Positions 1-7,131 of a stretch of DNA of 7,286 nucleotides are shown here, in pieces. Below the pieces are notes generated by a model, which ran no database searches, was not told where the DNA came from, and worked only from the letters and a program-made list of their open reading frames with translations. Numbering within the stretch: position 1 is the first letter of the stretch; each line of letters starts with the position of its first letter. The position numbers and the translations under genes were made by a program. Source of the DNA: Candidatus Eiseniibacteriota bacterium (GTDB taxonomy: Bacteria; Arandabacterota; Arandabacteria; JAGLYR01); assembly GCA_023132135.1 (NCBI GenBank), contig JAGLYR010000318.1, forward strand, positions 1 through 7,286, given 5' to 3'.

Positions 1-583
1 ACTCCGCCTCCACCTTCTCCCTGGCGAGTCCCGCACCCTTGAACGCCACCAGTCGCCCGCCCCCCCGAAGCAAGGGCAAACCCATCTCAACCAAGCGCGC
101 CAGCTTCGCCACCGTCCGCACCACCACCACATCCAAGCCACCCGCAAGTCCACCGTCCTTCACCAGCTCCTCCGCCCTCACCCGCAACACCACTGTCTCC
201 CGTAACCCCAAGTGTCCCACGACGCGCTCCAGAAATAAACAGCGCTTTCGAACAGACTCCACCAGAGTCATCCTCAGTGCAGGCCTCAGGATCTTCCAGA
301 CCAGTCCCGGGAACCCAGCCCCGCTCCCCAAATCCATGATCTCCGTATCTACATTGGTCCGGAGACATCGCAACCCCTCCGCGCAGTCCAGGAAATGATA
401 TTCCACCAGACGATCCACGTCGCGGCGCGAGACAAGATTCACCCGCCGATTCCAGCTCCTGACGGCCTCCCGGTACCACACCAGAGCTTCCAGACGATCC
501 TCGGAACACTCCAGCCCCAGCCCCGCGAGCGCATCACGGAAAGCCAGGAATTCCGTATCCAGTGGTGATCCATATCGTCTCAC
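1..583 (-). CDS. rsmG: 16S rRNA (guanine-N7) methyltransferase RsmG (GidB), 3' end cut by window
   Basis: RsmG transfers a methyl group from S-adenosylmethionine to N7 of a guanine in the 530 loop of 16S rRNA (G527 in E. coli numbering); it is cytosolic. The 194 codons present read openly to the window edge. The SAM-binding loop [10 protein letters not shown] is at residues 84-93. Before it comes the family N-terminal helical part with WNRRVNLVS (44-52) and H63. After it come LVES (107-110), VVVVRT (152-157) and LVAFKG (178-183). Families usually have a little over 200 residues, so only the C-terminal end is missing. The start is GTG at 581-583, which overlaps the mnmG stop as GTGA; a GGAAG five bases upstream can act as Shine-Dalgarno. 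This suggests translational coupling to mnmG. A run of seven G on the coding strand (plus 60-66) encodes part of the LLRGGGRL stretch. Identity is secure from the motif and the position after mnmG. Confidence 0.95.
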
Positions 584-2493: not shown

Positions 2494-3858
2494 CTACTTG
2501 CCAATACAGAACCGTGAGAAAATGCGCTCCAGAATCTCCTCACTTGTTGTCTCTCCGCTGAGATCTCCAAATGCCTCAACTGCTTCCCGAAGATCCACTG
2601 CGGCGATTTCAATACCGCCAGAGTTTATCGCATCAACACTTTTTATAACCATATCGTACGTTCGTCTCAAGATGTCTATCTGTCGGACGCTCGCCGGGAC
2701 ACCTACTTCCGGCTCAAGGTTGCCGGCAATTCGGCGGCCCAGTTCCTGTTTCAGATCATCCACCCCATCCCCGCGCAGAGCCGACACTCGCACTACCGGA
2801 ACTCCGGGCCCCAACCCACTCACCAAGTTCTCGACTTCCCTCCGGACCCCGAAATCTATCTTGTTGAGAACCAGCAAGACCTGGTCGCCGCTGCAACCAG
2901 TGAGAGCTTTCCTGTCCTCGTCATCCGGCACCCCCGCAGCATCCAGCAAGTGGAGCACTATCTCCGCCCGTTTCCCTTCCCTCCGGGCGCGCTCCACAGC
3001 AATCTCTTCAATCCCGCTGGTCCCGGACCGAATTCCCGCCGTATCCAGCAGTCGAGTGGGAACACCTCCCATGGATATCCATTCAGCCACCACATCGCGC
3101 GTTGTTCCCGGTTTGTCGCTCACAATCACCCGGTCTTCTCCCACAAGGCAGTTGAAAAGCGTCGACTTGCCCACATTGGGTTTTCCCACAATGGCTACGT
3201 CGGTTCCGTCCTGGAGTCTTCGCCCCAGCCGACAGCGATCAAGCATCGCCTCGAGCCGACGCGCAACATCAGCCAGTTTCTTGCCCATCTCCTCGTCGGA
3301 CCATGGCGCTGTGTCCTCCGCAAAGTCAATCTCACATTCCAGATGCACACGGCACTCATCGAGTTCCCCTCGAAGCGATCTCAACTCCCGAGATACCTCT
3401 CCCCCCGCCTGGCGAACAGCCGCCCGGAGACCTGCGTCCGTCCGGGCTTGGATGATCTCCACCACACCCTCGGCCTGAACCAGATCCATGCGGCCGTTAA
3501 GAAACCCTCGTCGGGTGAACTCGCCGGCTTCCGCCAGCCTCGCGCCTGCCGCCAGTACCTGTTCCAGCACCAGAGCCGAAGGTACGCGACCGCCATGGCA
3601 GCTGATCTCGACGGTGTCTTCACCCGTTGAGGTTCCCGGGCCGCGCATCACGGTCAGGAGCACCCGATCAATGGTATCGCCCCGCTTGTCCACGACGCGA
3701 CCATAGCTGACGGTGTGCGAAGGCATTTCCGAGGGATTCTTTCCACCCCGGAAGCACTCGTCCGCAACCCTGACCGCTGTCGGCCCCGAGATGCGGACGA
3801 TGGAAAGCGCACCTTCCCCGATGGGAGTTGCAATTGCTGCGATGGTGTCTCCAAACAC
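2494..3858 (-). CDS. mnmE: tRNA uridine-5-carboxymethylaminomethyl modification GTPase MnmE (TrmE)
   Basis: MnmE is the GTPase and formyl-tetrahydrofolate-binding partner of MnmG in wobble-uridine modification of tRNA. The 454 residues match the family length. The N-terminal tetrahydrofolate-binding domain opens with DTIAAIATPIGEGALSIVRISG (4-25). The inserted G domain carries G1 GKPNVGKST (225-233), G2 GTTRD (251-255), G3 DTAG (272-275), G4 NKID (332-335) and SA (359-360). The helical domain ends in the family's FCIGK (450-454), whose Cys is conserved. The Arg-His pair often seen where the C-terminal helical domain resumes is not present: this stretch reads VRQIDILRR (391-399). The start is GTG at 3856-3858, chosen because family members begin only a few residues before DTI and an in-frame stop lies 30 bases further up. 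Its Shine-Dalgarno sequence lies on the far side of a hairpin. Confidence 0.97.
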   Translation of the reverse strand: MFGDTIAAIATPIGEGALSIVRISGPTAVRVADECFRGGKNPSEMPSHTVSYGRVVDKRGDTIDRVLLTVMRGPGTSTGEDTVEISCHGGRVPSALVLEQVLAAGARLAEAGEFTRRGFLNGRMDLVQAEGVVEIIQARTDAGLRAAVRQAGGEVSRELRSLRGELDECRVHLECEIDFAEDTAPWSDEEMGKKLADVARRLEAMLDRCRLGRRLQDGTDVAIVGKPNVGKSTLFNCLVGEDRVIVSDKPGTTRDVVAEWISMGGVPTRLLDTAGIRSGTSGIEEIAVERARREGKRAEIVLHLLDAAGVPDDEDRKALTGCSGDQVLLVLNKIDFGVRREVENLVSGLGPGVPVVRVSALRGDGVDDLKQELGRRIAGNLEPEVGVPASVRQIDILRRTYDMVIKSVDAINSGGIEIAAVDLREAVEAFGDLSGETTSEEILERIFSRFCIGK

Positions 3859-3866
3859 ACCAACGA

Positions 3867-3902
3867 CAGGGTGCGCTTCCGCTCACCCTGCCTCCACCTC
3901 CT
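3867..3902 (-). promoter_or_regulatory. mnmE ribosome-binding site separated from GTG start by a hairpin
   Basis: On the coding strand AGGAGGTGGAGG (3902-3891) is a very strong Shine-Dalgarno sequence but ends 32 bases before the mnmE GTG. The bases between begin with an inverted repeat at 3890-3867: CAGGGTG, a two-base bulge AG, CG, a GAAG loop, then CGCACCCTG. This gives nine Watson-Crick pairs. If the stem forms, the GGAGG at 3895-3891 is brought to eight bases from the start codon, a normal spacing. The sequence and pairing are read directly; the role in initiation is inferred. Confidence 0.55.
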
Positions 3903-3932
3903 CGTATGGAAATGAACCTCGGACTACCCCGA

Positions 3933-4496
3933 TCACACAGGTTGAGCAGACCGGCTTTTTCCGGAATCCGTCGTTCGTCCTCCGGAGCTCCGATCCCTGC
4001 GGTAGGAACTTCTCCCCTTGTCTTGGGGGGACGATCGTCGCCGCGATCCCGAGCGTTGGCGGCGCCGGTATCCTCCCACATCCACAGTCACCCGCCGCCG
4101 CTCACTGCAACCGCTATTGACCATGCGGTCGATCAGATGTTCAAGAGCGTCCAGGGTCTGGCCGTGACGCCCGATCAGCAAACCATCGAGGTCGGCGGTT
4201 TCAATGGAAACGTGGATTCGCATTTCGCTGATCGCCACTCCTACCTGTCCACCCAGTCCCATTCGCCCCAGGAGACCATCCACTATCCTCCGGGCTCTTT
4301 CTTCCCTTGTTGCCGCGGGGATCAGCTGCACACGGGCCTTCCGAGCTCCGAATAGCCAGAAGATACCCCTGGAGCCCTCATCGAGGACGATGACCCGCAC
4401 GTCCCCTTCCGGCATTCCAAGAACAGCCAAACCCCGATTAACAGCTTCTCTGATCGTCTTTCCCTCTTGAACGATCCCGTCTTTCATTTCCGTCAT
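3933..4496 (-). CDS. jag: Jag/KhpB-type RNA-binding protein, Jag-N and KH domains, no R3H
   Basis: Jag (KhpB, SpoIIIJ-associated) is a cytosolic RNA-binding protein usually encoded directly after yidC. With the ATG at 4494-4496 it has 187 residues. The Jag-N domain spans about 8-58, including EGKTIREAVN and the typical GSRGIFWLFGARKARV. A KH domain follows (about 60-142) with GRHG as the GxxG loop (109-112) and TLDALEHLIDRMVN. Normal family members continue from GGY into a roughly 60-residue R3H domain. Here the last 45 residues are instead a low-complexity tail rich in Arg, Ser and Gly (13 Arg and 2 Lys after Y143), with no R3H signature. The ATG is chosen because GGGA lies eight bases upstream. 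An in-frame TTG at 4512-4514 would add six residues, and the ATG at 4485-4487 would remove three. The yidC gap is 42 bases. Identity is secure from Jag-N, KH and position; the tail is unusual. Confidence 0.9.
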   Translation of the reverse strand: MTEMKDGIVQEGKTIREAVNRGLAVLGMPEGDVRVIVLDEGSRGIFWLFGARKARVQLIPAATREERARRIVDGLLGRMGLGGQVGVAISEMRIHVSIETADLDGLLIGRHGQTLDALEHLIDRMVNSGCSERRRVTVDVGGYRRRQRSGSRRRSSPQDKGRSSYRRDRSSGGRTTDSGKSRSAQPV

Positions 4497-4538
4497 CGTC
4501 GGTGTCCCATCCAAATCCAGGTTTGTGCATGGAAAAGA

Positions 4539-6242
4539 CTACGCAGGTTCCCCTTCCGCGGCAGCCTTGCCTCGCTTCACCATCACGTACTGCTGCCCGA
4601 TACTCATGACCGTGTTCACAAGCCAGTACAGAACCAAACCAGACGGCATACGGAAGAAGATCACCGTCATGAAAATGGGCATCATGTAGCCCATCATCTT
4701 CTGCCGCGGATCGCCGGCCCCGCTGGTGGTAGTCAACTTCTGCTGCAGGAGCATCGATACTCCCATCAATATTGGCAACAGGCTGAGAGCCGGAAGCGGC
4801 GCAGGCAAAGAAAGAACCACATCGGGAAGCGAAAGATCGTTGATCCACAGGACAAAGGGCGCTTGCCTCAGCTCGATCGTTCGCTGCAGGACGGCATAGA
4901 GAGCGAAGAACACGGGCGACTGCAACAGCAGAGGAAAGCACCCGCCCACAGGATTGACGCCCTGGTCCTTATAGAGCTTCATCACCTCCTGGTTCATACG
5001 CTTGGGGTCCTTCTTGTGCTTCTCCTTGAGCGCCGCCATCTTGGGCTGGAGCTCCTGCATTCTCTGCATGGACTTCATGCTCTTCTGCGTGAGCGGGTAG
5101 AAGAGGACCTTCGTGACGACTGACAGGATGATGATAACCAGACCATAGTTCGGAATCCACTTGTGCGTTGTCAGCAGCATCCAGTAGATGAGCTTGCTAA
5201 GGGGGCGGATGAGTTTGTGCCCGAAATCAACATATTGTTCGAGACCGAGATCGAGATCCTTGAGGATCCTGTAGTCAAGCGGGCCGAGGTACAGCTGGGT
5301 GTCTATCCGCCAACCTCCCCTTTCTGTCGCCGCGAAGAGAATCGAGAAGCCCAGACGCTCAGCGCCCTCCTCACCGCCCATTTCAACGGCCATGGCGTTT
5401 CCGCTCCGGGGAACCAGCACCGAGGTGAAGTACTTCGTCTTCAGTCCCGCCCAGTGCACCTCCCCGCGGCGCAGGGGCATCGGCTCCTTCTTCAAATGCT
5501 TGACCTGCTTCTTGATGACCTCGCTGTCCACGGAAACCAAGGTAGAAAAGTAGCGGTTCTCATCCGTCCGGTCGGCTTCTGTTGAGGCCGCCGAACTGAT
5601 CCAGCCGAGACGCAGCGGGTCTCCTTTCTCGGCCGCCGGATCGCTCACCGAAATTGACATGTCCGCCAGGTATTCCGCGTTTCTGAACGTCAGAACCTCC
5701 GTGATCACAGGTCCGTGCCCGCCGGCGGATGTGAATCTCACTTCGCCCACCAAGGCCCTGTCGGGCGTCCCCTCTCCCAGAACCAGTCTGTCGACATTCG
5801 TCTCAAAAACCCGCATTGCGCCGCTCTGCTTTTCCCAACCCCCCACTCCCAGGAAAAGCCCTCCCTCCAGGCTGTCGGGCACCAGTTCCGCCCAATCTGA
5901 ATCAACACCGGAGAAATTCTTCAGCTGCCATGAGAGGATTCTCGGACCCACGTTGCTCAGGACCGCTCTGAACAAGTCCGTGTCCACCACGATTCTTTTC
6001 TCGGGGATTGCAGAAGGAAACTCATCGTCTCCGATTTCCATCTCAGTGCCGGCAGATTCCTCCCGGCGAAACTCCTCCCGGGAGGGGATTGCCGTTCTTT
6101 CCTTCGCAAGATCCGCCGTGACCACCGGAGAATCGGATCGCTGCGGCTCAGGCGGAGCAACGCGCGTTGGCCGCATCAGCACCTCATACATGACCAGCAC
6201 GAGGAACATCAACATAACTGCAATGAAAGCCCTTTTCTCCAT
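4539..6242 (-). CDS. yidC: membrane protein insertase YidC
   Basis: YidC inserts and folds inner-membrane proteins, alone or with SecYEG. The 567-residue length and layout are those of the Gram-negative form. The first transmembrane helix is at about 6-23, a large periplasmic domain spans about 50-345, and the conserved five-helix core runs to the C terminus. In the core, KVLFYPLTQKSMKSM begins at 378, the cytoplasmic coiled hairpin is at about 388-426, NPVGGCFPLLLQSPVFFALY at 430-449, and MPSGLVLYW at 532-540. The groove residue that is Arg366 in E. coli aligns with Lys378. The C-terminal tail after the last helix is short (about 15 residues), with no long ribosome-binding extension. The ATG start has AGAGGG nine bases upstream. 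The gene lies 51 bases after yidD, the usual companion order. Identity is secure. Confidence 0.97.
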   Translation of the reverse strand: MEKRAFIAVMLMFLVLVMYEVLMRPTRVAPPEPQRSDSPVVTADLAKERTAIPSREEFRREESAGTEMEIGDDEFPSAIPEKRIVVDTDLFRAVLSNVGPRILSWQLKNFSGVDSDWAELVPDSLEGGLFLGVGGWEKQSGAMRVFETNVDRLVLGEGTPDRALVGEVRFTSAGGHGPVITEVLTFRNAEYLADMSISVSDPAAEKGDPLRLGWISSAASTEADRTDENRYFSTLVSVDSEVIKKQVKHLKKEPMPLRRGEVHWAGLKTKYFTSVLVPRSGNAMAVEMGGEEGAERLGFSILFAATERGGWRIDTQLYLGPLDYRILKDLDLGLEQYVDFGHKLIRPLSKLIYWMLLTTHKWIPNYGLVIIILSVVTKVLFYPLTQKSMKSMQRMQELQPKMAALKEKHKKDPKRMNQEVMKLYKDQGVNPVGGCFPLLLQSPVFFALYAVLQRTIELRQAPFVLWINDLSLPDVVLSLPAPLPALSLLPILMGVSMLLQQKLTTTSGAGDPRQKMMGYMMPIFMTVIFFRMPSGLVLYWLVNTVMSIGQQYVMVKRGKAAAEGEPA

Positions 6243-6996: not shown

Positions 6997-7131
6997 TCAG
7001 ACCGTCAGGCGAGTTCTACCCTTCGCGCGTCTTCTCGTGATGACCTTTCGCCCACCGCGGGTTCGCATCCGAGCCCGAAAGCCGAGGCCCCTTTTCCGAC
7101 GCACATTACTCGGTTGATACGTTCGCTTCAC
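6997..7131 (-). CDS. rpmH: 50S ribosomal protein L34 (bL34)
   Basis: This is the small, very basic large-subunit ribosomal protein L34. The 44-residue product begins [20 protein letters not shown] after the initiator and ends [12 protein letters not shown], both diagnostic of the family, and the length is exactly typical. The start codon is GTG (7129-7131), set by the invariant KRTYQPS start and supported by GGAGAAAAGG ending seven bases upstream. It is the first gene of the cluster; rnpA follows on the same strand after a gap of about 70 bases. Confidence 0.97.

Follow-up and report, generated by a model that had tools for sequence, protein, structure and literature searches.

A Jag/KhpB orthologue with a basic, predicted disordered tail where the R3H domain is expected

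KhpB, also referred to as EloR or Jag, is described as a conserved protein of three domains. It is recognized by the position of its gene between yidC and mnmE and by an R3H domain at its C-terminus. In S. pneumoniae, the KH domain of EloR/KhpB is the part that binds KhpA: EloR constructs needed KH for this interaction in a two-hybrid system, an R3H-deleted form being among those tested, and the control of elongation is said to require all three RNA-binding domains (PMC6403258). Loss of R3H may therefore cost function. The C. symbiosum KhpB-type protein 3GKU has been named as a homologue of EloR (PMC6403258). Here, we focus on a Jag protein that deviates from this arrangement at its C-terminus.

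The jag gene and its C-terminal tail

The window, which is the whole stretch of 7,286 nucleotides analysed, carries the order rpmH-rnpA-yidD-yidC-jag-mnmE-mnmG on its minus strand. This order is canonical and is shared by relatives of the same class; rpmH lies at about 6997-7131 (read off the translation), yidC at 4539-6242 and mnmE at 2494-3858. The jag/khpB gene itself (3933-4514, minus strand; ORF, Pfam and NCBIfam) lies between yidC and mnmE, with a gap of 74 nt (3859-3932) between its stop and mnmE, and encodes 193 amino acids if a TTG start is used or 187 if translation begins at an internal ATG at 4496. It is the only Jag copy, as a search of the genome returned no second one; a search of the window for RNA elements returned none.

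From domain searches it is evident that the first two domains are present. Jag_N occupies residues 17-63 (4326-4466, minus strand; PF14804, 9.2e-12 in the protein, above the Pfam cut-off), and a type II KH domain of the KH_KhpA-B family occupies residues 97-143 (4086-4229, minus strand; PF13083, 3.5e-8, above the cut-off), its GxxG preserved as IGRHG within the motif GLLIGRHGQT. Most of both domains is modelled by AlphaFold with a pLDDT above 90, and the best match of the protein in sequence (5e-14) as well as in fold (Foldseek) is 3GKU. A single gene for KhpA, with a full-length KH domain (1e-24), is found on another contig of the genome. As the preliminary description had read from the translation, Jag_N and KH are intact up to a GGY motif (4068-4076) and R3H is missing: no Pfam match to R3H follows KH, and a search for R3H anywhere in the 96%-complete genome returned none. 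The absence of R3H from this Jag is a solid observation. With the NCBIfam model Jag_EloR (NF041568), the protein scores 103.4 bits, below the equivalog cut-off of 145, in a match that covers model positions 2-142 of 203 and ends at Jag residue 154. By its position and its two domains the gene is a KhpB orthologue, yet its product is not a three-domain KhpB.

Where R3H would be expected there is instead an Arg/Ser/Gly-rich tail (3933-4067 on the minus strand, stop codon included). The boundaries proposed earlier, 3933-4070, are essentially right, with the tail proper at 3936-4067 and the stop at 3933-3935; the residues beyond GGY read RRRQRSGSRRRSSPQDKGRSSYRRDRSSGGRTTDSGKSRSAQPV. With GGY counted in, the 47 residues include 13 Arg, 11 Ser and 7 Gly (66% Arg/Ser/Gly), a single hydrophobic residue and a net charge of +12. 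This Arg/Ser/Gly fraction was matched by none of 5000 dinucleotide shuffles and by none of the 3056 overlapping out-of-frame windows drawn from the window's genes, while out-of-frame reads of R3H regions reached 0.51 at most (60 reads). Therefore, the tail is no simple out-of-frame reading. In loci of the same class, a tail-like composition occurs in one unrelated stretch per about 34,500 overlapping six-frame windows. The use of both codon boxes for Arg (CGN/AGR) and for Ser (TCN/AGY) speaks against a DNA repeat; no repeats were found in the tail DNA, and its origin by copying from another site in the genome was also rejected, as no second copy was found. A similar tail encoded elsewhere in the genome was likewise searched for and not found. 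With a pLDDT of about 46-65 the tail is predicted to be disordered, and its basic, disordered character thus agrees with what had been proposed from the sequence.

Lineage of the loss and parallel cases in other bacteria

One possibility raised at the outset was that the tail is a lineage trait of the phylum. Eight genomes of the phylum were compared, this one included, with the window's own family represented by one genome. In all seven others Jag has a full R3H and, behind it, a short stretch with little net charge (e.g. PQRRTRPPGEGTGESE). Going by these sequences, an R3H-less, tailed Jag is not a phylum trait and, because R3H is present in all seven, its loss is derived and belongs to the branch that leads to this genome. 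A scan of named genomes with MnmE for a close relative found none, the best-scoring match having 38% identity. The spacing of the locus has changed as well. GGY lies 236 nt from mnmE, a distance that is 265-269 nt in class relatives; the clean deletion of 180 nt is therefore insufficient to explain the locus on its own. From the jag stop to the DTI codons of mnmE there are 83 nt, against 1-23 nt in class relatives, where the two genes are practically gapless.

A survey across the domain covered 337 genomes, 133 of which have a Jag_N match. A Pfam R3H match is missing in 19 of these 133. Jag_N lies solely within large ORFs (548-1141 aa) in eight of the 19 and stands alone (65-77 aa) in two; in six the C-terminus is diverged, and an R3H profile made from relatives matches three of these six. 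This leaves three genomes in which Jag has Jag_N and KH but lacks R3H, namely G076, G248 and the present one. Three such cases are a minimum, because the count took any R3H match in a genome as R3H present, also one lying outside Jag. Another survey, this time around G248, covered nearly the same genomes and brought no addition.

In G076 (locus L064, 231-923, minus strand), Jag_N and KH are followed by about 80 Arg/Gly-rich residues, and the GxxG motif of KH is degraded (LLSDKGG). No mnmE was found within 1.5 kb downstream of this jag; it adjoins jag in the relatives L078, L082 and L086. All 18 relatives inspected (L078-L095) have R3H and behind it a basic tail (GGRGGRG, RSRRRRKR and others), so the tail probably predates the loss of R3H. 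This suggests, as far as the sequences compared can tell, that in the G076 lineage the tail came first and the loss of R3H afterwards. In G248 (locus L070, 473-949, minus strand), a Jag of 159 aa continues after KH with about 20 basic residues ending RIRSRHKRGKRHM, and mnmE is retained downstream. The lineages are unrelated, and the losses in G076 and G248 are independent of the one in this genome.

The survey also turned up other departures from the usual Jag architecture. Stand-alone Jag_N proteins of 65-77 aa with neither KH nor R3H are encoded at L071 (G063; 286-516, plus strand) and L072 (G206; 123-317, minus strand); the two genomes, 1.2-1.3 Mb in size, belong to a single family. Long Arg/Gly-rich, disordered-looking segments lie between Jag_N and KH in L021 and behind R3H in L023. 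There are three Jag_N matches in G006 (L006, L034 and L040), a possibly mixed bin (6% contamination). In two of these the jag gene is full-length and flanked by yidC and mnmE; the third (L040), a Jag_N-only match considered as a further case, was rejected, its gene being clipped by the contig end.

Readings of the R3H-less protein

The reading that we prefer, at a probability of roughly 0.6, is that of a genuine Jag/KhpB which lost R3H on its own branch and binds RNA through KH and a disordered basic tail. It draws on the absence of R3H, the intact KH motif, the KhpA gene, the composition and predicted disorder of the tail, and the two parallels. Jag_N would act as in other KhpBs, and KH would pair with the separate KhpA of the genome and make sequence-selective contacts with RNA. 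The basic tail may then provide an extra electrostatic grip of low specificity, given elsewhere by R3H, and so serve as a functional replacement of that domain. Such a contribution has precedent, as disordered regions add unspecific RNA affinity in many RNA chaperones (PMC9037510). The preliminary description had spoken of a disordered RNA- or ribosome-binding extension. Its disorder and basic charge were borne out and the idea fits the independent parallels; the binding of RNA by the tail is inferred. A broader version holds that R3H and a disordered basic tail are interchangeable and have been swapped independently in several lineages, at least once with the tail arising first behind R3H. 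This we regard as tentative and less likely than not.

The main rival is decay under relaxed selection, in which R3H was lost because KhpB matters little in this organism, leaving a basic tail that has no job of its own; we give it a real though minority chance. The Jag body on this branch has diverged somewhat more than its operon neighbours. The ratio of the distances from its own branch to those between other families, obtained as arithmetic on pairwise identities, is about 1.8 for the Jag body and 1.33, 1.41, 1.47 and 1.61 for MnmE, YidC, MnmG and RnpA. This greater divergence, together with the damage to the KH motif of G076 alongside its loss of R3H, would also fit decay. Also counted on this side is that khpB mutations, with frameshifts and stops among those marked, arise in L. 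cremoris as salt-resistant suppressors (PMC12542702). However, the frame here is open over 193 codons and KH keeps its IGRHG, both folded domains are modelled at high confidence, and the composition of the tail is far from random.

Considerably less probable is a frameshift, real or introduced in assembly, that conceals R3H and leaves the tail as an out-of-frame reading. The distance from KH to mnmE is near that of the R3H-bearing relatives, and the summed codon likelihood is +6.5 in another frame, which holds an isolated ERRI, against -7.5 in the frame of the tail. A test confined to synonymous codons did not separate the frames, however, and the high second-position GC of the tail is due to its Arg, Ser and Gly codons. 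The ERRI, spotted by eye in frame 1, proved to be at noise level in a frameshift-tolerant alignment. With an R3H profile derived from 30 relatives, a six-frame search of 3800-4100 (HMMER), the tail included, gave no match, and the frameshift-tolerant alignment of this profile to 3859-4067 scored 24.5, no better than 400 dinucleotide shuffles (mean 24.7, s.d. 3.6). The power of this alignment was gauged with the R3H regions of two class relatives, each given one indel and random substitutions. These scored about 94-115 at 20% substitution, about 50 (49 at the lowest) at 30% and near background at about 40%. For two R3H domains of other phyla, which are among the most diverged, the signal was lost at lower substitution. 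Since an R3H with an indel and 20-30% substitution would still be detected, a recent frameshift or a sequencing error is excluded, in line with the earlier argument that a single frameshift does not explain the tail, and the possible remainder is an old, heavily decayed frameshift, against which the test has no power at about 40% substitution. The Arg/Ser/Gly content of the tail, above that of any out-of-frame read of an R3H region, speaks against a frameshift as well.

It is very improbable that the tail is a ribosome-contacting extension offsetting the short C-terminal tail of the adjacent YidC (KRGKAAAEGEPA), as had been speculated from the proximity of the two genes and the basic charge of the Jag tail: YidC tails are just as short in class relatives, whose Jag lacks a strongly basic tail, in the G076 clade YidC (three relatives checked: L078, L082, L086) and Jag are both basic-tailed, and pairings that run this way show no sign of compensation.

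Comparison with known KhpB proteins

Returning to the reading of a genuine KhpB with a replaced R3H, the swap may show how a simple charged tail can stand in for a folded domain. What R3H contributes could be tested directly on the natural KhpB variants that lack it and all have a basic tail. If it is true that a short disordered tail suffices, R3H would mainly give unspecific affinity for RNA and not recognition.

Compared with KhpB/EloR/Jag as modelled in NF041568, the RNA-binding cell elongation regulator, the protein has in common its operon position, Jag_N, KH and a KhpA in the genome. It differs in lacking R3H, in scoring 103 of 145 bits and in ending with a disordered Arg/Ser/Gly tail. 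The match to 3GKU holds in sequence and fold across Jag_N and KH, and in sequence it stops at residue 148 of 225, the rest of 3GKU being the position of R3H in this EloR homologue. In the Jag proteins of G076 and G248 a basic tail likewise comes after Jag_N and KH, with no R3H. However, they belong to unrelated lineages, the GxxG of KH is lost in G076 and the tail of G248 is only about 20 residues long. Jag proteins of the G076 class (e.g. L078 and L083) also have a basic tail, of RGG or RRRRKR type, but behind a complete R3H. The Jag described here is a real, rare and lineage-specific variant of a well-known protein.
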